DNA of 64,000 nt. It comes from Vulcanimicrobiota bacterium. GTDB taxonomy: Bacteria > Vulcanimicrobiota > Vulcanimicrobiia > Vulcanimicrobiales > Vulcanimicrobiaceae. The stretch covers positions 1 through 64,000 of the forward strand of contig JASHOG010000135.1 in assembly GCA_030041225.1 (NCBI GenBank), written 5' to 3'. A model generated the notes under the pieces. It saw nothing but the letters and a program-made list of their open reading frames with translations, did not search any database and had not been told where the DNA came from. A program made the position numbers and the translations under genes. Of this stretch, positions 1 through 9,192 are shown piece by piece (position 1 is the first letter of the stretch; each line of letters begins with the position of its first letter).

Positions 1-55
1 AAATATGGCGGGCCGTCGACGCTCTATCAGCGCACGTAACTAGTGCAGCTTGATG

Positions 56-139
56 TGGGGAAGGAGGGATTTGAACCCTCATGAGGGGTTACCTCGGCCG
101 CTTTTGAGGCGGCTGCGTCTACCGTTCCGCCACTTCCCC
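56..139 (-). tRNA. tRNA-Leu (CAA)
   Basis: A class II tRNA of 84 nt reads on the minus strand. The 7-bp acceptor stem (GGGGAAG with CTTCCCC), the anticodon stem GCCGC/GCGGC with loop CTCAAAA (anticodon CAA), a long variable arm and the T-loop GGTTCAAATCC are all visible. The discriminator base is A and CCA is not encoded. Its first 21 nt overlap the end of the upstream HTH gene, whose TAG stop lies in the D-arm. Confidence 0.95.
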
Positions 140-961: not shown

Positions 962-3900
962 CTAGGGGTTTTGGACGAGCGCGCGTGCCTGATCCTCGAA
1001 CGCTGCAGCCAGTACACCGAGGCGCATCTCGACGGCGTTGCGCTTGAAGTGGAGCGTAAGGATCGCGGCGGCGCGCGTTTTGCGCACGTCGTACGAGGAA
1101 AGGTCGCCGGCTCGCCAGCAGAGGCGTAACAGTTTTCCCGCCTTCGGATAGAAGATTCCGAAGCACGACGCGCCTTTCTCGAGCACTTCGCCCTCATAGA
1201 AGGCAAAGCCGGAAATGCTCTTGAGATGAGCGTTGCTCGCCGCATCGTGCGGGATCATCCGCTCGGAAACGGTGAGTTCCCGATCGTCATTCCCTATCGA
1301 GAGCGTACGCTCGAAACGCGCGCCTCCGCGTGGCAGATCGGGTGCATCATAGGAGCACGACACGACCGCTTTCGGTGGTCCGGCCTGGAGAATCGAACAG
1401 CGATAGGGACGATTGAACGTACCCGCGGGGATTGCGTGCGTCGCAGCCGCGATATAGTCGCGCGATGACGGCGTCGGCTCCGGGTCGACGCTGTCACGAA
1501 AGAGACCGATTGTCGCCGCCAGGTTGTACGCGGTGCTTGCTATGACGAAGTTGGGGGAATTGGTCGCGGAGTGTGGCTGGCTCTCGTTCAGCGCACCGAT
1601 GCGTGCTCCGGCACTCGGCGCGAGGACAACTTGCAGCGTGGGGTTGTTCATGATGATGGCACCGGTGCCATCCTCAAAGACGTCGGAACGGGTTGCGCTG
1701 GCAAACGTCGGGGCAACCGTGCCGGCCGAGAACTCGGTGTTCCCAAACGTGAAGATCTGCTGGTCGGAGATCAAATCGCAGAGTACGCCCATCGCGTGGG
1801 AGCTCGCGCTTGATGTAGACACAGCGCCAACTGGAATTACGCGCGTGCTTTCACCCCACGCATCGAACGTAACTCTCGGTACGTGCGCGGTTCCATGGCT
1901 GAGGCGTACGACGTAGGGGCCAAACGTCCGCGTTCGCCTGCTCCAGTTCGAAACCACGACGAACCCGAAAGCAGCGTCATCGGAGAGCAGCAAGGAGGCT
2001 TCGCCGTGATTTCCAGCGAGAACGGCAGCCGGCACATCGTCGAGCGTCGCAATCAGTCGGTGCTGCGATCGCAAGAACGCCAACGTCCCGCGCGTTTTAG
2101 GTACGAAGGCCGCAATTTCGCGCGGACTCAGCATGACAGGGAGAAGTACCGGTGAGGTCCCGGTGAGCGTGCCGTAGCGCAGGTCGAGTAAGCGGCAGAG
2201 CAAACCGCGGTCGTGGCACTCATGAAGAGCCGTAACCGTCGAGGCAGCCTCTCGCGCGATCGTTGCGTTGCTTTGTGCTCCTGCGCGAAAGAGGCTTGGC
2301 GGCCAGACGATCTCGGCGTCGTACGCCGGATGCGTCTTCGCGAGGAGCTCGCCGAAACGCGCGATGGTCACGCCAAAATCGATTGTCGGCAGAGCGCGTG
2401 GACCGATGTCCGGACCGCAGAGATTGCTGAAGAAGGCTGCGTCCCAATCATACGCCCAGTTTGCCCACGGAACTTCCCAGCCGGCCGGATAGATGGTGTC
2501 CTGAACCGGAAAGTTGACGATACCGTGTGCGCCGTCGGCGAGAAACTCCGCCAGCGCGAGCGCCGTGTTCGTCGCATCGGCCGGACGCGGCTCATTCTCG
2601 TCGGCGCCTTGCAGCCAGCCCGCCTGAAACTCGGAGACCATGATAGGCTTCGTGCTCTGCGTTCCCGCAAGGCCCGCCGTGAGATCGATCTGATCCCTAT
2701 CGTGCGCACCGATCCTGTACGCGTCGCTCTGGTACCAGTTCGTCCATGCCCAGACGGGTGAGTCAGCGGTAACCTTCATTTGCCACGTGTTCACGAACAC
2801 CGGGACGCGATCGCCCGTAACCGCGTGAACCGTCCACTTCAGCCAGTCGATGTACGCGTGCCAATGCGGCGCGGGCCACGTGTCGTTGTCTAAATACGCA
2901 CCTTGATCGTCATCGAGCGCGATCGCGATGACATCGTGCGAATACGGGGCGACGGCGGAGAGCACGTCGTGCAGCCACCGCGCGGCGTACCGTAAGTGCG
3001 TCTTATTGTGGAGCCACTCGCTCGCCGCGGCGTCGGCGTGTTTGTTTTGAAGCGTCGCCGTCGCGGGATAGCGCCCTTCGAGCACGTCGTGCAGAGGCAT
3101 GTCGTACTCCGGGCGCTCGAGGAGCCACGCGGGGTAGCCGCCGTTGCGCCACTCGTTGCGGATCACTGGTCCGGGGCGAAGCACGACCTTGAAGCCCAGC
3201 CGATGGACGATGCGCAAAAGCCCGATGAGATCACGACGGGAATTCGTTCTGCCGTTAAAGTCGAGGTGCCCCGCAGTTGGCTCCTCCCAGTTCCACGGCA
3301 CGTAGAGGTCGATCGTGTTGATGAGAAGGTCCGACTGATAGTGGCGCAACCACTCCTCCCACTGGTCGCGCGGAATGCGCTCGTAGAAGAACGCCGCGCC
3401 GTAGATAAAAAACGGCTTACCGTCGACCTCGAATACCGGATAACCGTGCATCTGCACGACGCGCGACGTCTGCCAGCTTCGCCACGCCCCTACGGGCGCA
3501 GCATAAGCGGTGCGGGGAAGGAGAAGGACGAGCAAGCAGAGCGCAGCGACCGCAAATGGCCAGAGCCTCTTGCCGTGGGCGAAGATGAGAAAGACGATAG
3601 CGCCGAGCGCGAGCCAGCCGACGCCGAGCTCAATTGCAAGCGTTCCGGTGTACGCGAAGGCGAGGCTCCAACCGGCAAAGGCGACGAGCGCCGGGAGCGG
3701 ATAGAGCGGCATCCGAAACGGTGCCGGCCCGCGGCGGCGCAAGAGTGCGAGCGCAATGATCTGAAGGATGCTTTGAATCAGGACGATGCCCGCGGTAAGA
3801 ATCGCGATCACTTCTTGCAGCGAGAAAAACGATGCGACGAGTGAGAGAACGCCAACGGCGAGCAGGGCGGTCTGAGGAATACCGTGACGCGCGTCGAGCC

Positions 3901-4882
3901 GAGCGAAGATGGGCAGAAATACTCCATCGCGCGCAGCCGCGAACGGTATCCGCGAGAAGCCCAGCAGGTTACCGTAGAGGGAGGCGAACGCGGTCACGAG
4001 CACGAGCAACGTGATCGCGCGCGCCGCCTGCGTTCCCCACGCATGCGCGACGACGAGAGCGCCGACGTACTGGGAAGCCGCCGTCGGCGTTCCATCGGCG
4101 CCGATGAGCGTATGCCACGGGACAACGCCGAGCACGCCGACCTGCAACGCGATGTACAGCGCCGCAACGAGCGCGATTGAGACGATGATCGAGCGCGGTA
4201 TGGTTCGTGTCGGCGCGCGGACCTCGTCGCCGAGGAGCGCGACGTCTGCATAGCCGACGTAATCGTACAACGTGATATAGAGCGCGCTCGCGAAGCCCGC
4301 GAGCAGTCCGGCGTCGAAGCGCACGGGACGCGGAATCTGCATCGCCGTATGCCAGTTCGCATGGGTCAAGGCGGCAATCGCGATGACGAGGAGCGTCAGG
4401 ACCGCGATCGCGCCGAGCAGCACACCGATTGACGCAACCTTTGACGTCCTGCGCGCAAGCACGGCGATCGTCACGACGCCGACGCAGAGGGCGCAGAGAT
4501 GGAGCAGCCACCACGAGGCGAGCGAAGGAGCAAAGTAGGCTGCATAATCGGCGAAGCCGATGTACCCGCTTGCGAGCAGGCATGGCGCATAGAGCAGGAA
4601 CTGCCAGTTGAAGAGGAACGCGAGGGCTCGACCAAGGCGATCGCGACCGAAGCTCTCGCGCAAGTACACGTAGGTACCACCAGAACCCGGAAGGCGGGAG
4701 GAGAGCTCCGCCCAGACAAGGCCGTCGCAAAGCGCCACGATCGCGCCGCCGATCCAGCCAATGAGCGCGAGCGCGCCGCCGAGTGCAGCGAGCACGAGAG
4801 GAATCGTGATGAGCGGGCCGATGCCGATCATCGTGATGACGTTGAGTGCGATAGCCCCATGCGTATCGATCGCGCGTTCCAT
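962..4882 (-). CDS. APC-type permease fused to GH35 glycosidase
   Basis: This is a single ORF of about 1306 residues. Residues 1-435 form a 12-helix amino acid/polyamine permease (APC) domain (ITMIGIGPLITIPL, SSRLPGSGGTYVYLRESFG, YDYVGYADVALLGDEV). A further hydrophobic segment (440-460, ending RTAYAAP, a signal-peptidase-like site) leads into a GH35 beta-galactosidase-like domain: YVPWNWEEPTAGHLDFNGR at 527-545, VVLRPGPVIRNEWRNGGYPAW at 566-586, and SEFQAGW with the expected nucleophile Glu751. The motif usually reading QxENEYG is ALDDDQG (655-661), so the acid/base Glu is replaced by Asp. No ATG, GTG or TTG lies at the junction, supporting a true fusion. Start: ATG at 4882; a GTG at 4906 is possible. 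It diverges from an esterase. Joint uptake and sugar release at the outer membrane face is inference. Confidence 0.85.
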   Translation of the reverse strand: MERAIDTHGAIALNVITMIGIGPLITIPLVLAALGGALALIGWIGGAIVALCDGLVWAELSSRLPGSGGTYVYLRESFGRDRLGRALAFLFNWQFLLYAPCLLASGYIGFADYAAYFAPSLASWWLLHLCALCVGVVTIAVLARRTSKVASIGVLLGAIAVLTLLVIAIAALTHANWHTAMQIPRPVRFDAGLLAGFASALYITLYDYVGYADVALLGDEVRAPTRTIPRSIIVSIALVAALYIALQVGVLGVVPWHTLIGADGTPTAASQYVGALVVAHAWGTQAARAITLLVLVTAFASLYGNLLGFSRIPFAAARDGVFLPIFARLDARHGIPQTALLAVGVLSLVASFFSLQEVIAILTAGIVLIQSILQIIALALLRRRGPAPFRMPLYPLPALVAFAGWSLAFAYTGTLAIELGVGWLALGAIVFLIFAHGKRLWPFAVAALCLLVLLLPRTAYAAPVGAWRSWQTSRVVQMHGYPVFEVDGKPFFIYGAAFFYERIPRDQWEEWLRHYQSDLLINTIDLYVPWNWEEPTAGHLDFNGRTNSRRDLIGLLRIVHRLGFKVVLRPGPVIRNEWRNGGYPAWLLERPEYDMPLHDVLEGRYPATATLQNKHADAAASEWLHNKTHLRYAARWLHDVLSAVAPYSHDVIAIALDDDQGAYLDNDTWPAPHWHAYIDWLKWTVHAVTGDRVPVFVNTWQMKVTADSPVWAWTNWYQSDAYRIGAHDRDQIDLTAGLAGTQSTKPIMVSEFQAGWLQGADENEPRPADATNTALALAEFLADGAHGIVNFPVQDTIYPAGWEVPWANWAYDWDAAFFSNLCGPDIGPRALPTIDFGVTIARFGELLAKTHPAYDAEIVWPPSLFRAGAQSNATIAREAASTVTALHECHDRGLLCRLLDLRYGTLTGTSPVLLPVMLSPREIAAFVPKTRGTLAFLRSQHRLIATLDDVPAAVLAGNHGEASLLLSDDAAFGFVVVSNWSRRTRTFGPYVVRLSHGTAHVPRVTFDAWGESTRVIPVGAVSTSSASSHAMGVLCDLISDQQIFTFGNTEFSAGTVAPTFASATRSDVFEDGTGAIIMNNPTLQVVLAPSAGARIGALNESQPHSATNSPNFVIASTAYNLAATIGLFRDSVDPEPTPSSRDYIAAATHAIPAGTFNRPYRCSILQAGPPKAVVSCSYDAPDLPRGGARFERTLSIGNDDRELTVSERMIPHDAASNAHLKSISGFAFYEGEVLEKGASCFGIFYPKAGKLLRLCWRAGDLSSYDVRKTRAAAILTLHFKRNAVEMRLGVLAAAFEDQARALVQNP

Positions 4883-4952: not shown

Positions 4953-5993
4953 ATGGAAGAACGCTCGCAGCTGGCACGGCTATTGGGTGTGCGTGGCGAT
5001 GTGCGTCTTGATACCGTCAAGAGCGAGGCCCTTCGGCACAATCCGCTTGGTGATCCCGCGGATCGCGTGCTCATCGCCTACCTTCCCCCGGGCTACGACG
5101 ACAACGGTTCGCAGCGTTACCCCGTGCTCTACTTCCTCCACGGCTACACGGGAAACGCGGCAGCGATGATCGGTACGAGGCCATGGGAGCGCAACATCGT
5201 GCAGTGGGCTGACGCGCTCATCGCTCAGCGGCGAATGGCGCCGGTCATTCTGGCGGTCGTCGATGGTTTTACGCGCCTCGGCGGTTCACAGTTCGTCGAC
5301 TCGATCCACAACGGGGACTACGCAACCTACGTCGTCCGCGACGTCATCGGCCACGTGGATCGCACGTATCGTACGATTGCAGCCGAAGGCGGGCGTGCGG
5401 TGCTGGGAAAATCCTCGGGTGGTTTCGGCGCGGTGCACGTGGCGATGGAGCACCCTGGGGCATTTTCGGCCTTCGCCTCGCACAGCGGCGACGCGTACTT
5501 CGAATATGTCTATCCGATTGCGTTTCCAGCCGCTCAACGAGCGTTGGAGCGCTTTGGCTTTGACGTAGCGGCGTTCGTTGCGGATTTCGAGGCCTCGCCG
5601 AAACGCACGCAGGAGGCCTATCAGGCAATCGAGATCCTCGGCTACGCCGCTGCGTACTCCCCGACAGAGCGTCGGGCTTTCGCGTTCGAGCTGCCATTCG
5701 ATCTGCACACGGGCGAGATCCGTGAAGATGTGTTCGCGCGCTGGCTCGCCTTCGACCCGGTTCGTCGGGTAGAGGGAAGCAGGACCGCGCTGGAGCGGTT
5801 GCGCTTGCGGTACCTGGATTGCGGGCGACGCGACGAATACGGCCTCGATATCGCTGCACGGGTCCTGGCCCGCACGATGCGCGAGGCCGGTTTGAGCGTA
5901 CGCCACGAGGAGTTCGAGGACGGGCACCGCAACGTAGGCTACCGGTACGAGGTTTCGCTGCCGGCCCTGGCCGGCGTCTTGGATAGAACATGA
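4953..5993 (+). CDS. alpha/beta-hydrolase esterase (enterochelin esterase/EstA family)
   Basis: This 346-residue protein is a serine hydrolase of the putative-esterase family. It has the N-terminal signature AYLPPGYDDNG...YPVLYFLHGYTG, the nucleophile elbow GKSSGG within VLGKSSGGFGAVHVAMEHP, and a late His in EDGHRNVGYRYE. No signal peptide is seen, so it is probably cytoplasmic. The ATG at 4953 is chosen over a longer frame because of a nearby GAAGAGAG and the homologous start region. It is divergent from the permease-GH35 fusion and overlaps the next gene by four bases (ATGA). Removal of acyl groups from the imported or released carbohydrate is a reasonable inference; the substrate is unknown. 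Confidence 0.85.
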   Translation: MEERSQLARLLGVRGDVRLDTVKSEALRHNPLGDPADRVLIAYLPPGYDDNGSQRYPVLYFLHGYTGNAAAMIGTRPWERNIVQWADALIAQRRMAPVILAVVDGFTRLGGSQFVDSIHNGDYATYVVRDVIGHVDRTYRTIAAEGGRAVLGKSSGGFGAVHVAMEHPGAFSAFASHSGDAYFEYVYPIAFPAAQRALERFGFDVAAFVADFEASPKRTQEAYQAIEILGYAAAYSPTERRAFAFELPFDLHTGEIREDVFARWLAFDPVRRVEGSRTALERLRLRYLDCGRRDEYGLDIAARVLARTMREAGLSVRHEEFEDGHRNVGYRYEVSLPALAGVLDRT

Positions 5994-6571
5994 AGAAGCG
6001 TCTTTTGGTATTTGGTGCACTTGCTTTGGTACTAACGATACCGCTGATGGTTGCGGCACAGGACGATACATCGACGCCCAATCCCGATCCGCTCGACTAC
6101 AACGATCCCGCGATGCACTACTCGGCACCACCGGAAGCAAAGCTCGTGGGAAACATGATGCAGGTGACGCTCGATCAGCTGAATGATGATCCGACGACGG
6201 TCGCTTCGTGGGTGATCCCAGGCAAGAGCCACACCGACGTCAAGGTGATCACGATCATGATGGAGTCGTATACAGGCGATCTCGACGGCTGGGATAGCAC
6301 CTATGAGAACGCGCTTCGAGAGCAAGACTCCTCTGCGGATATCAAAAACAAGGAGCACGTCGAACTGCAAAACGGCATGCCGGCGCTCTTCGTCGAAGCG
6401 ACGTTAGGCTCGGGGTTCAGTACGGAGAAGGTCTTCGCATATATCTGGATCGACTCGCAGCGCGGCGTCGTTCTCAGCGCGTCCGCGCCGCTCGGCGGCA
6501 TCGACGAGGATCAGGCAAAGCAGCTGCTCGCCGGCGCCACCGCGGTGAAATACCCCGCCGACCAACCGTAG
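5990..6571 (+). CDS. secreted protein of unknown function
   Basis: This 193-residue protein has a signal peptide (KKRLLVFGALALVLTIPLMVAA, cleavage after AQ-like residues near 24). The mature part is acidic, with alternating strands and no cysteines; the stretches KVITIMMESYTGDLDGW and ALFVEATLGSGFSTEKVFAYIWID suggest a compact beta-rich fold. It is translationally coupled to the esterase (four-base overlap) and converges on the transsulfuration genes with no gap. I do not recognise the family. Confidence 0.75.
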   Translation: MKKRLLVFGALALVLTIPLMVAAQDDTSTPNPDPLDYNDPAMHYSAPPEAKLVGNMMQVTLDQLNDDPTTVASWVIPGKSHTDVKVITIMMESYTGDLDGWDSTYENALREQDSSADIKNKEHVELQNGMPALFVEATLGSGFSTEKVFAYIWIDSQRGVVLSASAPLGGIDEDQAKQLLAGATAVKYPADQP

Positions 6572-7711
6572 CTACAGCGGAGAGAGCGCCCCCTCGAGGT
6601 CTTCCAAGAGATCTTCGATATCTTCGATGCCCACGGAAAGGCGCAGAAGTCCGTCGGTAACGCCGCGGCGATCGCGATCTTCCTTCGGCATCGATCCGTG
6701 CGTCATCCGCGCGGGGTGGCAGATGAGCGATTCGACGCCGCCCAGACTCTCGGCGAGACTGAAGTAGCGCAGGCTTGCGGCGAAGGCCATCGCACGTTCC
6801 TCCGAGACGCGCAGCGTGAACGATAGCATTCCGCCGAAGCCACGCATCTGGCGTTGTGCAAGTGCATGCTGAGGGTGTGCCGGCAGGCCCGGATAGTTGA
6901 CGTGCTCGACCTTCTGATGTTTCTCCAGATACTGAGCGATCGCGAGCGCGTTGCGCTCGTGCTGCTGCATTCGTAAGGCAAGCGTCTTCGCTCCGCGCAT
7001 CACGAGCCAGGCATCGAACGGTCCGGGGACGCCCCCGACCGAGTTCTGATGGAACTTGATCTGCTCGTGGATCGCAGCGTCATTCGTGATCGCGACGCCG
7101 CCGACGACATCACTATGACCGCCGATGTACTTCGTTGTCGAGTGGACGACGATGTCGGCACCGAGCGCGAGCGGCTGCTGAAAATAGGGCGTGGCGAATG
7201 TGTTATCGACGGCGATGAGCGCCGGTTTGGCGACGGCGGCCCGAGTGGCCGCAATATCGACGATCTTGAGCAGTGGGTTCGTGGGCGTCTCCACCCAGAC
7301 CAGACGCGTCTGCGGACGCAGCGCCGCGCGCAACGCCTCGAGATCGCTCAGGTCGACGTACGTGAAGTCGATCGCGTAGCGTGCAAAGACTCGGGAGAAG
7401 AGGCGGTAGGTGCCGCCGTACATGTCGTCGCTCGCGACCACGTGGTCACCGGCGGAGAGAAGGTTGAGCACGGCGGACGTTGCGGCCATCCCGCTGGCAA
7501 AAGCGCCGGCGTGAGCAGCGTTCTCCAACGCGGCGAGCTGCTTCTCGAGCGCAACGCGCGTCGGATTGATCGTACGGCTGTAGTCGAAACCCTTGTGTTT
7601 GCCGACAGCCTCTTGGGTGTACGTCGATGTCTGGAAGATCGGGACGATCGTCGCTCCCGTCGTCTGCTCCGCCTCTTGGCCGACGTGAATGGCACGCGTG
7701 GAGAAACGCAT
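6572..7711 (-). CDS. cystathionine gamma-lyase/synthase (PLP-dependent)
   Basis: This 379-residue protein is a Cys/Met-metabolism PLP enzyme. Visible motifs are STRAIHVGQEAEQTTGATIVPIFQTSTY, YSRTINPTR (phosphate-binding Tyr and Arg), ASGMAATSAVL, ETPTNP, DNTFATPY and the PLP lysine in STTKYIGGHSD. It starts one base after the stop of cystathionine beta-synthase, so the pair should be co-transcribed. With CBS upstream the likely role is the lyase step of reverse transsulfuration (cystathionine to cysteine), although cystathionine gamma-synthase activity cannot be excluded from sequence alone. Confidence 0.93.
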   Translation of the reverse strand: MRFSTRAIHVGQEAEQTTGATIVPIFQTSTYTQEAVGKHKGFDYSRTINPTRVALEKQLAALENAAHAGAFASGMAATSAVLNLLSAGDHVVASDDMYGGTYRLFSRVFARYAIDFTYVDLSDLEALRAALRPQTRLVWVETPTNPLLKIVDIAATRAAVAKPALIAVDNTFATPYFQQPLALGADIVVHSTTKYIGGHSDVVGGVAITNDAAIHEQIKFHQNSVGGVPGPFDAWLVMRGAKTLALRMQQHERNALAIAQYLEKHQKVEHVNYPGLPAHPQHALAQRQMRGFGGMLSFTLRVSEERAMAFAASLRYFSLAESLGGVESLICHPARMTHGSMPKEDRDRRGVTDGLLRLSVGIEDIEDLLEDLEGALSPL

Positions 7712-7712
7712 G

Positions 7713-9131
7713 TTAGTCCTGGTGAGGGGAATGAGGATGGGCGGAGGTATCGGCGAGAAACGTGATGACGTCTTGCCGCGTCACCACGCCGATCGGTTCG
7801 CGGTCATCGGTCACGACGATCGCGGGATTTGCCAGCGTCAAGAGCTTGTAGGCGCGGTCGATCTCCTCGCTCTGCTCGAGCGCAGGGAAGGGTCGGCCCA
7901 TCACCTCGCTCACCGGCTGGTGGATGATATCGGCGCGGTCGAAGACGGCCTGCATCACCGCCACGTCATTGATGCTGCCGATGACCTCATGGCCGCGCAT
8001 GACGGGGATCTGCGAGATCTCGTAGGTTCGGAGAAGCTCGAGCGCCGTGTTGACCGTGTCCTCTTGTTTGACGGTGATCATCGGCGGCAACGGCGTCTTT
8101 CCGCGCAGCACGTCACCGACCGTCGCGCGGCGTTTCCCTTCGCTCAAGAACCCGTTGGCGATCATCCAGTCGTCGCTGAAGATCTTCGACATGTAGCCGC
8201 GCCCCGAGTCAGGGAAGATCACAACGACGATCGCATCGCGCGGCAGCGTCTTTGCCAAGCGCACCGCGGCGACCGCAGCGGTGCCCGAGGAACCGCCGAC
8301 GAGCAGGCCCTCCTCCCGCGTAATGCGGCGCGCCATGAGAAAAGATTCGCGATCGGCGACGCGCACGATCTCGTCGATGACCTTGAGATCGACCGTCTCC
8401 GGAAGATAGTTCAAACCGATACCCTCGACGGCATAGGATCGCGGTGTGTCGCCTGAGTAGATGGAGCCCTCGGGATCGGCGCCGATCACATGCACTCGTG
8501 GATTCTGCTCCTTGAGGTAGCGCGCGCTGCCCGAAATGGTTCCTCCGGTTCCGATCCCCGCGACGAGATGCGTGATACGCCCTCGTGTCTGTTCCCAGAT
8601 CTCCGGCCCTGTTGTGTGGTAGTGCGCCTCGGGATTGTTGTGATTGTGGAACTGATTGGGTTGAAATGCTCCGGGAATTTCGGCGGCGAGACGATTGGCG
8701 ACGCTGTAGTACGATTCGGGAGAGTCATTCGGAACATTCGACGGTGTGACGACCACCTCGGCGCCGTAGGCGCGCAACAGGTCCACCTTTTCCTTCGACA
8801 TCTTGTCGGGCATGACGAGAATGCAACGGTAACCGCGGATCGCCGCGGCCATTGCAAGACCCGTTCCCGTGTTGCCGCTCGTCGGCTCGACAATCGTCCC
8901 GCCCGGCTTGAGGAAGCCCGCACGCTCCGCTACGTCGAGCATCGCCTTTGCGGGGCGATCCTTCACGCTTCCGCCCGGGTTCATATACTCGATCTTGGCG
9001 AGGACGAGTGGTGCAGCGCCATCGAGAATTTTGTTGAGCTTCACGAGCGGCGTTTTTCCGATCGCCTCGAGCGCGTTCTCGCAGTAGGCGAGTTCGGCGT
9101 GCTCCTGCGTGGTTTTCCCTGCTGCGGTCAT
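7713..9131 (-). CDS. cystathionine beta-synthase with C-terminal CBS pair
   Basis: This protein of about 472 residues condenses serine with homocysteine. The catalytic fold-II PLP core carries GKTPLVKLN, the PLP lysine in NPGGSVKDRPA, TSGNTGTGLA, GTGGTISG and GGSSGTAAVA. The last 120 residues form two CBS domains (MITVKQEDTVNTALELL...; VSEVMGRPFPALEQSEEIDRAYKLL...), which in the family bind adenosyl ligands. No haem-binding N-terminal extension is present. Start ATG 9131 fits the family; an upstream ATG at 9182 is open too and would leave only 10 bp to the divergent glycerate kinase. No SAM riboswitch can fit there. Confidence 0.93.
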   Translation of the reverse strand: MTAAGKTTQEHAELAYCENALEAIGKTPLVKLNKILDGAAPLVLAKIEYMNPGGSVKDRPAKAMLDVAERAGFLKPGGTIVEPTSGNTGTGLAMAAAIRGYRCILVMPDKMSKEKVDLLRAYGAEVVVTPSNVPNDSPESYYSVANRLAAEIPGAFQPNQFHNHNNPEAHYHTTGPEIWEQTRGRITHLVAGIGTGGTISGSARYLKEQNPRVHVIGADPEGSIYSGDTPRSYAVEGIGLNYLPETVDLKVIDEIVRVADRESFLMARRITREEGLLVGGSSGTAAVAAVRLAKTLPRDAIVVVIFPDSGRGYMSKIFSDDWMIANGFLSEGKRRATVGDVLRGKTPLPPMITVKQEDTVNTALELLRTYEISQIPVMRGHEVIGSINDVAVMQAVFDRADIIHQPVSEVMGRPFPALEQSEEIDRAYKLLTLANPAIVVTDDREPIGVVTRQDVITFLADTSAHPHSPHQD

Positions 9132-9192
9132 GGAGAGGGTGCCTTCGTCGCAAGGGGCGTTGGCTCCGGTCGAAAAGGGCATACTCTAGGAA

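Follow-up and report, generated by a model that had tools for sequence, protein, structure and literature searches.

A single gene joins a LAT-type permease to a predicted extracytoplasmic GH35-related glycosidase in a family of Eremiobacterota

Results

A permease and a glycosidase domain in one open frame

The window analysed here is the stretch of 64,000 nucleotides formed by positions 1 to 64,000 (forward strand) of contig JASHOG010000135.1, from the 2.4-Mb draft genome of a Vulcanimicrobiaceae bacterium (assembly GCA_030041225.1). Near its beginning a single open frame, starting at an ATG at position 4882 and read on the minus strand, encodes a permease followed by a glycosidase-like domain; the conserved N-terminus of the permease excludes a start further upstream. 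An earlier note on this DNA had described the frame as an APC-type permease running without a break into a signal-like helix and a full GH35 domain. The frame and its order of parts are borne out by profile matches to both families, PF13520 (AA_permease_2) covering residues 10-412 (E 1.9e-36, 126.4 bits against a curated cut-off of 27) and PF01301 (Glyco_hydro_35) covering residues 485-593 (E 4.5e-30, 105.8 bits against a cut-off of 27, with only profile positions 3-106 aligned). The word full, on the other hand, does not stand: PF01301 passes its cut-off, but the domain is not canonical and, because the glutamate that acts as acid/base in GH35 is replaced by aspartate, we call it GH35-related. 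The gene comprises the following features:

962..4882, minus strand: fused permease-glycosidase gene, 1306 amino acids plus stop, with 48 non-redundant fused relatives
3563..4882, minus strand: complete 12-helix LAT-type APC permease, residues 1-440 (PF13520, BasC, Foldseek)
4814..4825, minus strand: GIGP, motif of the unwound segment of transmembrane helix 1 (TM1), residues 20-23 (alignment conservation)
4250..4267, minus strand: YDYVGY, TM6 motif, residues 206-211, with Asp207 at the position of BasC Ala200 (alignment to BasC)
3500..3562, minus strand: WPF tail of the permease, 13th hydrophobic segment and leader-peptidase-like AYA motif, residues 441-461 (alignments, AlphaFold)
965..3499, minus strand: predicted extracytoplasmic GH35-related glycosidase with TIM barrel and C-terminal beta domains, residues 462-1306, the glycosidase proper beginning at about 470 (PF01301, NF041127, AlphaFold, Foldseek)
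2906..2914, minus strand: DDD, residues 657-659, with Asp658 at the position of GlmA Asp178 and Asp659 at the acid/base position (alignment)
2630..2632, minus strand: Glu751, presumed nucleophile, in SEFQAGW (invariant in the alignment)

The fusion is real and conserved

Fused relatives were sought in 98 related genomes and in a collection holding one genome per species. In the former, full-length fused relatives of about 45-68% identity and without stops turned up in 20 genera, all from one Eremiobacterota family, and the collection added more. With duplicates removed, 48 non-redundant fused sequences remain; these are the other proteins with both parts for which the earlier note had proposed a search. 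The carriers in the per-species collection are nearly all labelled Eremiobacterota or are unplaced metagenome-assembled genomes (MAGs), two labelled Rhodospirillales being taken as mislabelled. Across the joint, 13 pairings of related genomes (71-77 codons each) show not a single insertion or deletion, and about as many differences are synonymous as are replacements, more than the roughly one in four expected of unconstrained sequence. The fusion is thus more than chance or assembly error, and the earlier note was right to consider two genes unlikely; the frameshift that it named as a possible refutation is contradicted. One relative (G023) does have a truly broken copy. Apparent split pairs in three genomes (G004, G005 and G020) were not counted as separate genes, since in each of them the gene is cut by the edge of a contig.

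The earlier note also stated that the joint lacks any in-frame ATG, GTG or TTG. This is not quite accurate, as TTG (codon 450), GTG (476) and ATG (478) are present, inside or after the hydrophobic segment. Its conclusion that two genes are unlikely holds all the same, for no conserved start codon lies upstream of that segment across the fused sequences.

The joint and the 13th helix

In many free permeases of the family the chain stops just past WPFA, its cytoplasmic tail reading, for example, KREWPFADAAGTQT or ERWWPFAQSATP; in the fusions the WPF box runs straight into a hydrophobic segment. The joint in the window reads WPFAVAALCLLVLLLPRTAYAAP, with a signal-like 13th helix at about residues 443-461 that closes on the motif A459-Y-A461. 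The combination typical of Type I signal peptides, a hydrophobic core followed by A-x-A, is found in 45 of the 48 fusions, whereas 1000 shufflings of the same stretches gave a mean of 35.1 and a maximum of 43; the signal-like helix of the earlier note is thereby upheld. Most free enzymes start with a leader of like kind. Since the WPF tail of the permease and the leader of the enzyme are both kept at the joint, the fusion unites an entire permease with an entire pre-enzyme, and the 13th helix looks as if it began as, and still resembles, the leader by which the glycosidase half was exported. Twelve helices would leave the C-terminus of the permease inside, and the 13th would therefore place the enzyme outside. 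The retention of A-x-A suggests, in turn, at least occasional release of the enzyme by leader peptidase. An AlphaFold model of the whole protein shows the 12 permease helices, a 13th at residues 441-454 and then the barrel, with linker residues 454-467 at a predicted local distance difference test score (pLDDT) below 50; its predicted template modelling score (pTM) of 0.61 makes the relative placement of the halves unusable.

The permease half

The closest solved relative of the permease by sequence is BasC (6f2g/9h76, E about 6e-24), and the nearest solved relatives also include xCT, AdiC, y+LAT1 and LAT1. Foldseek returned y+LAT1, BasC and LAT1-CD98hc at TM-scores of about 0.8 by target, and the 12-helix, LeuT-like APC fold is borne out by scores of 0.81-0.85 by target length against 6f2g, 8xxi and 5j4n. 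In an alignment of 52 fused and 26 standalone permeases, Gly20, Gly22 and Pro23 are present in 51 of the fused rows (the remaining row being a gap) and in 25 or 26 of the standalone ones. Compared with G(S/T/A/V)G, the TM1 substrate-binding motif of LAT-type permeases (PMC8399266), GIGP keeps both glycines, the middle residue being mostly isoleucine. With BasC and the SLC7 LAT light chains the permease half shares the 12-helix APC fold, 21-25% identity, the TM1 GxG and a TM7 tyrosine that contacts the carboxylate in LATs (Tyr243, equivalent to BasC Tyr236). Unlike BasC, it has YDY for FAY in TM6, a proline after the TM1 GxG, and a 13th helix with an ectodomain. Asp207, the residue that distinguishes the TM6 motif, occurs in all 52 fused and in 24 of the 26 standalone permeases. 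In TM5, BasC Lys154 stands in for the Na2 ion (PMC8399266); its position is taken by Ala160, and by alanine in 51 of the 52 fusions, so that the lysine characteristic of the LAT subfamily is missing. The TM6 and TM5 differences from BasC suggest a changed substrate and, possibly, changed ion coupling.

The glycosidase half

By profile, the top NCBIfam enzyme match is NF041127, exo-beta-D-glucosaminidase (residues 483-659, E 4.8e-33), whose 114.2 bits fall short of the 1500-bit equivalog cut-off. An AlphaFold model of residues 461-1306 is of good quality (pLDDT 87.9, pTM 0.90), and its best Foldseek matches in the PDB are structures of archaeal GlmA (6jow, 8oug, 5gsm and 5gsl), followed by a beta-1,2-glucosyltransferase and GH35 beta-galactosidases. 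Over the whole chain the TM-scores reach only about 0.3-0.46 by query, the domain arrangement being different and the match resting on the barrel.

EFQAGW and DDDQ show little or no variation across the family, and the DDD triplet and Glu751 are invariant in 51 aligned sequences, one Acidobacteria relative included. The active-site pattern is thus conserved, with the GH35 nucleophile in place and with aspartate (Asp659), not glutamate, at the acid/base position in every relative examined. GlmA uses Asp178 to bind the C2 amine and Glu179 as acid/base, and the substitutions D178N and E179Q abolish activity (PMC6566704). The aspartate that precedes the acid/base residue in GlmA is matched by the invariant Asp658; recognition of an amine is therefore plausible, proton transfer being left to Asp659 or to another residue. 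GlmA further resembles the enzyme in being its best match by both profile and fold and in the Glu and Tyr of the pocket. It differs in its acid/base glutamate and in its pocket (CGEW, against RNEW in the fusion enzyme), and the latter is predicted to be exported and is permease-fused; identity over the fold alignment is about 13%. The GH35 beta-galactosidases (human GLB1 and bacterial homologues) share with the fusion enzyme PF01301, the SEF-x-x-GW nucleophile motif and the TIM barrel, at about 22% identity over 388 columns, but it has DD for NE at the N187-E188 site, other C-terminal domains and a link to the membrane. Each half belongs, or is related, to known families. Three Acidobacteria MAGs (loci L158, L159 and L163) hold free relatives of the enzyme with leaders of their own, and L159, the one aligned, shares the DDD and Glu pattern; inspection of their surroundings gave no functional hint.

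Fused and free states

The halves are separate in part of the family only, contrary to the possibility, raised by the earlier note as a refutation, that they always are. Each genome with a close match to the permease has exactly one, fused or free, with two exceptions. Two genomes (G012 and G046) have the permease at the enzyme locus and no enzyme there, and four (G030, G038, G043 and G058) have the enzyme and no close permease match. Most free permeases form one clade, which also holds members from another family of the class, and in G016 two free halves nested among fused sequences look like the outcome of fission.

The fused state has been gained or lost repeatedly within the family. Mapping the fused label onto the enzyme tree takes 13 changes, of which well-supported branches force at least 10, and mapping it onto a tree of the two linked metabolic genes takes nine, with at least six forced. 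Grouping of the fused state as a single clade was rejected for the enzyme tree (approximately unbiased test, p 2e-62) and the permease tree (p 0.0012), in tests on quick trees that grouped all rows labelled fused, contig-broken ones included. As judged from these trees, a single origin without later changes is rejected. In genus g9, two genomes (G048 and G134, loci L071 and L161) have near-identical permease halves and enzyme halves from different clades, a mismatch that suggests recombination within the fused gene; the G134 copy is partial.

Gene neighbourhoods

Fused or not, the enzyme keeps one syntenic place in most genomes, amid four conserved neighbours:

4953..5993, plus strand: divergent putative esterase (PF00756)
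5990..6571, plus strand: small putative secreted protein without a Pfam match
6572..7711, minus strand: Cys/Met-metabolism pyridoxal phosphate enzyme (PF01053)
7713..9182, minus strand: cystathionine beta-synthase-like protein (PF00291 and CBS domains)

A free enzyme at this place has its own leader, and the free permease is located elsewhere. The esterase that the earlier note saw diverging from the fused gene is present and, as it has no visible leader, is probably cytoplasmic. Its proposed membership in a functional trio is not supported, for it stays by fused and free glycosidases alike and is thus linked to the enzyme locus. Also near the fused gene lie a tRNA-Leu(CAA) (55-139, minus strand), an adjoining small helix-turn-helix-like open reading frame (119-367) and a putative membrane protein without a Pfam match (371-949).

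The free permeases have neighbours of another kind. A gene for a SIS protein adjoins the permease in eight genomes, directly upstream on the same strand in seven (G021, G035, G039, G049, G055, G070 and G122) and adjacent and convergent in G016; the SIS genes of three loci (L038, L042 and L085) were identified by tblastn. The SIS proteins tested resemble the isomerase domain of GlmS and glucosamine-6-phosphate (GlcN6P) deaminases. A type-I phosphomannose isomerase lies directly upstream of the free permease in four further genomes (G015, G059, G132 and G135). The surroundings of the free permease also include a GH20 hexosaminidase (close by in G016 and G049) and, in four genomes, a large protein that is receptor-like and carries a carboxypeptidase-regulatory domain. 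The genomes with SIS or phosphomannose isomerase neighbours are partly related, and represent fewer than 12 independent events in three permease lineages. G058, which lacks this permease, has a compact group in which a GH20 hexosaminidase, a SIS protein and a large receptor-like protein are joined by a different APC permease (L183, 5513-13373), probably a locus for aminosugar uptake where another permease fills the slot. The SIS paralogue of the window genome lies elsewhere (L178, contig C47, 9152-15169), near an S13 D-Ala-D-Ala carboxypeptidase (PF02113), and neighbours of similar appearance in G026, G031 and G048 suggest a link to peptidoglycan recycling.

Discussion

From these comparisons we infer the topology, secretion, catalysis, substrate, transport and cleavage of a bifunctional membrane protein, arranged in the manner of the metazoan LAT/CD98hc transporters though as one chain, that would cut a glycoside outside the inner membrane and import the product, a proposal that we consider about equally likely to be right or wrong. 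The permease half would adopt the LAT fold with both termini in the cytoplasm, and the 13th helix would thread the glycosidase to the periplasmic side. There the GH35-related half would remove a terminal sugar. This would most likely be an amino sugar, for example glucosamine, derived from chitosan-type or other aminosugar glycans. The permease half would take up the freed sugar, which, once phosphorylated, would be processed by a cytoplasmic SIS-type deaminase/isomerase. The tethered enzyme might feed the permease locally or, alternatively, leader peptidase might free it and the fusion couple expression only. If release takes place at A-x-A, encoding both in one gene would yield equal amounts of transporter and periplasmic enzyme.

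Cutting coupled to import is favoured by several lines of evidence. No characterised enzyme is nearer than GlmA by profile or by fold, Asp658 coincides with its amine-binding aspartate and the invariant Asp207 lies in the TM6 binding region. The amino-sugar substrate entertained by the earlier note gains independent though indirect support from this similarity and from the free permeases, which adjoin GlcN6P-deaminase-like SIS genes (eight), phosphomannose isomerase genes (four) and, close by in two genomes, GH20. Moreover, 48 fusions in 20 genera combine a whole permease with a whole glycosidase and its leader, the 13th helix would carry the enzyme outside with A-x-A kept in all but three, and genomes with a close permease match have, two excepted, a single one.

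Several observations nevertheless weigh against this proposal. The presence of aspartate at the acid/base position in all relatives means that ordinary catalysis is not assured, and is the weakest point of the enzymatic interpretation. Tyr243 would equally suit an amino-acid substrate. The SIS links concern free permeases, the window genome having its SIS gene elsewhere; no kinase was identified, and the model of the fused protein offers no confident packing of enzyme on permease. More tentatively, and with rather less expectation of being right, we may suggest a transporter and enzyme in one chain, which would use an unusual Asp acid/base to hydrolyse an amino-sugar glycoside on the outer face and would pass the product to its own LAT-fold permease, switched from amino acids to amino sugars, a layout that would have been reached independently of metazoan LAT/CD98hc.

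Among the alternatives, the one that survives best, though we deem it unlikely, is that of a polyprotein, in which the fusion merely co-expresses two products: leader peptidase would always cut after residue 461 and the enzyme would be free in the periplasm, uncoupled from transport. The excess of A-x-A over shuffled stretches and the disordered linker are what this would predict, the same enzyme appears as a free secreted protein in many relatives, and frequent loss and gain of the fused state is expected if coupling is inessential. Yet an operon would suffice for co-expression, and the fusion has persisted through much of the family; furthermore, three of the 48 fusions lack A-x-A, and cleavage itself is presumed.

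Less probable still is a single-chain counterpart of the heteromeric amino-acid transporters, with the glycosidase mainly as the tethered ectodomain of an ordinary amino-acid transporter. It would have little or no catalytic activity and would serve stability, trafficking or the binding of wall or ligand, much like CD98hc and rBAT in partnership with SLC7 light chains. The permease is nearest to BasC, y+LAT1 and LAT1 by sequence and fold, the order of parts (transport fold, one extra helix, glycosidase-fold ectodomain) is alike, the acid/base glutamate is lost and the carboxylate-binding tyrosine retained. But outside the acid/base position the active site is invariant in all sequences, free enzymes included; free enzymes occur in the four genomes without a close permease match and free permeases without a glycosidase domain; A-x-A is kept, and sugar-phosphate genes adjoin the free permeases. 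The ectodomain of SLC3 heavy subunits is GH13-like. Like LAT1-CD98hc and b0,+AT-rBAT, the fused protein would pair a LAT fold with a glycosidase-fold ectodomain anchored by one helix on the outer face; unlike them, it is one polypeptide (in 48 sequences), bacterial, and has a GH35-related ectodomain with largely conserved active-site residues. SLC3 heavy subunits, in addition, are reported to have arisen first in metazoans (PMC6472337). By analogy, the fused protein thus works at most like the LAT/CD98hc layout, and is not a member of the heteromeric transporters.

The least probable explanation by a wide margin, namely that two genes mimic a fusion through a frameshift or sequencing error, or that internal initiation at the joint yields a separate enzyme, could invoke the in-frame TTG, GTG and ATG and the frame broken at this place in G023, but was discarded, together with artefact, in view of the 48 non-redundant open frames, the lack of a conserved start ahead of the hydrophobic segment and the in-frame, indel-free evolution of the joint.

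A limited search of the open-licence literature, with a few phrasings, found no description of transporter-glycosidase fusions or of APC-type aminosugar permeases. If the permease does carry amino sugars, these would be, to our knowledge, a new substrate class among LAT-type transporters. Under the cut-and-import proposal, glycan cutting and uptake, normally separate, would be united in one polypeptide of an uncultured soil lineage whose transport physiology is almost unknown. A bacterial ectodomain with a largely conserved active site also opens the role of ectodomains of the CD98hc/rBAT type to comparison, and the coexistence of fused, unfused and single-half states in one family provides a natural experiment on the benefit of joining a transporter to an enzyme.

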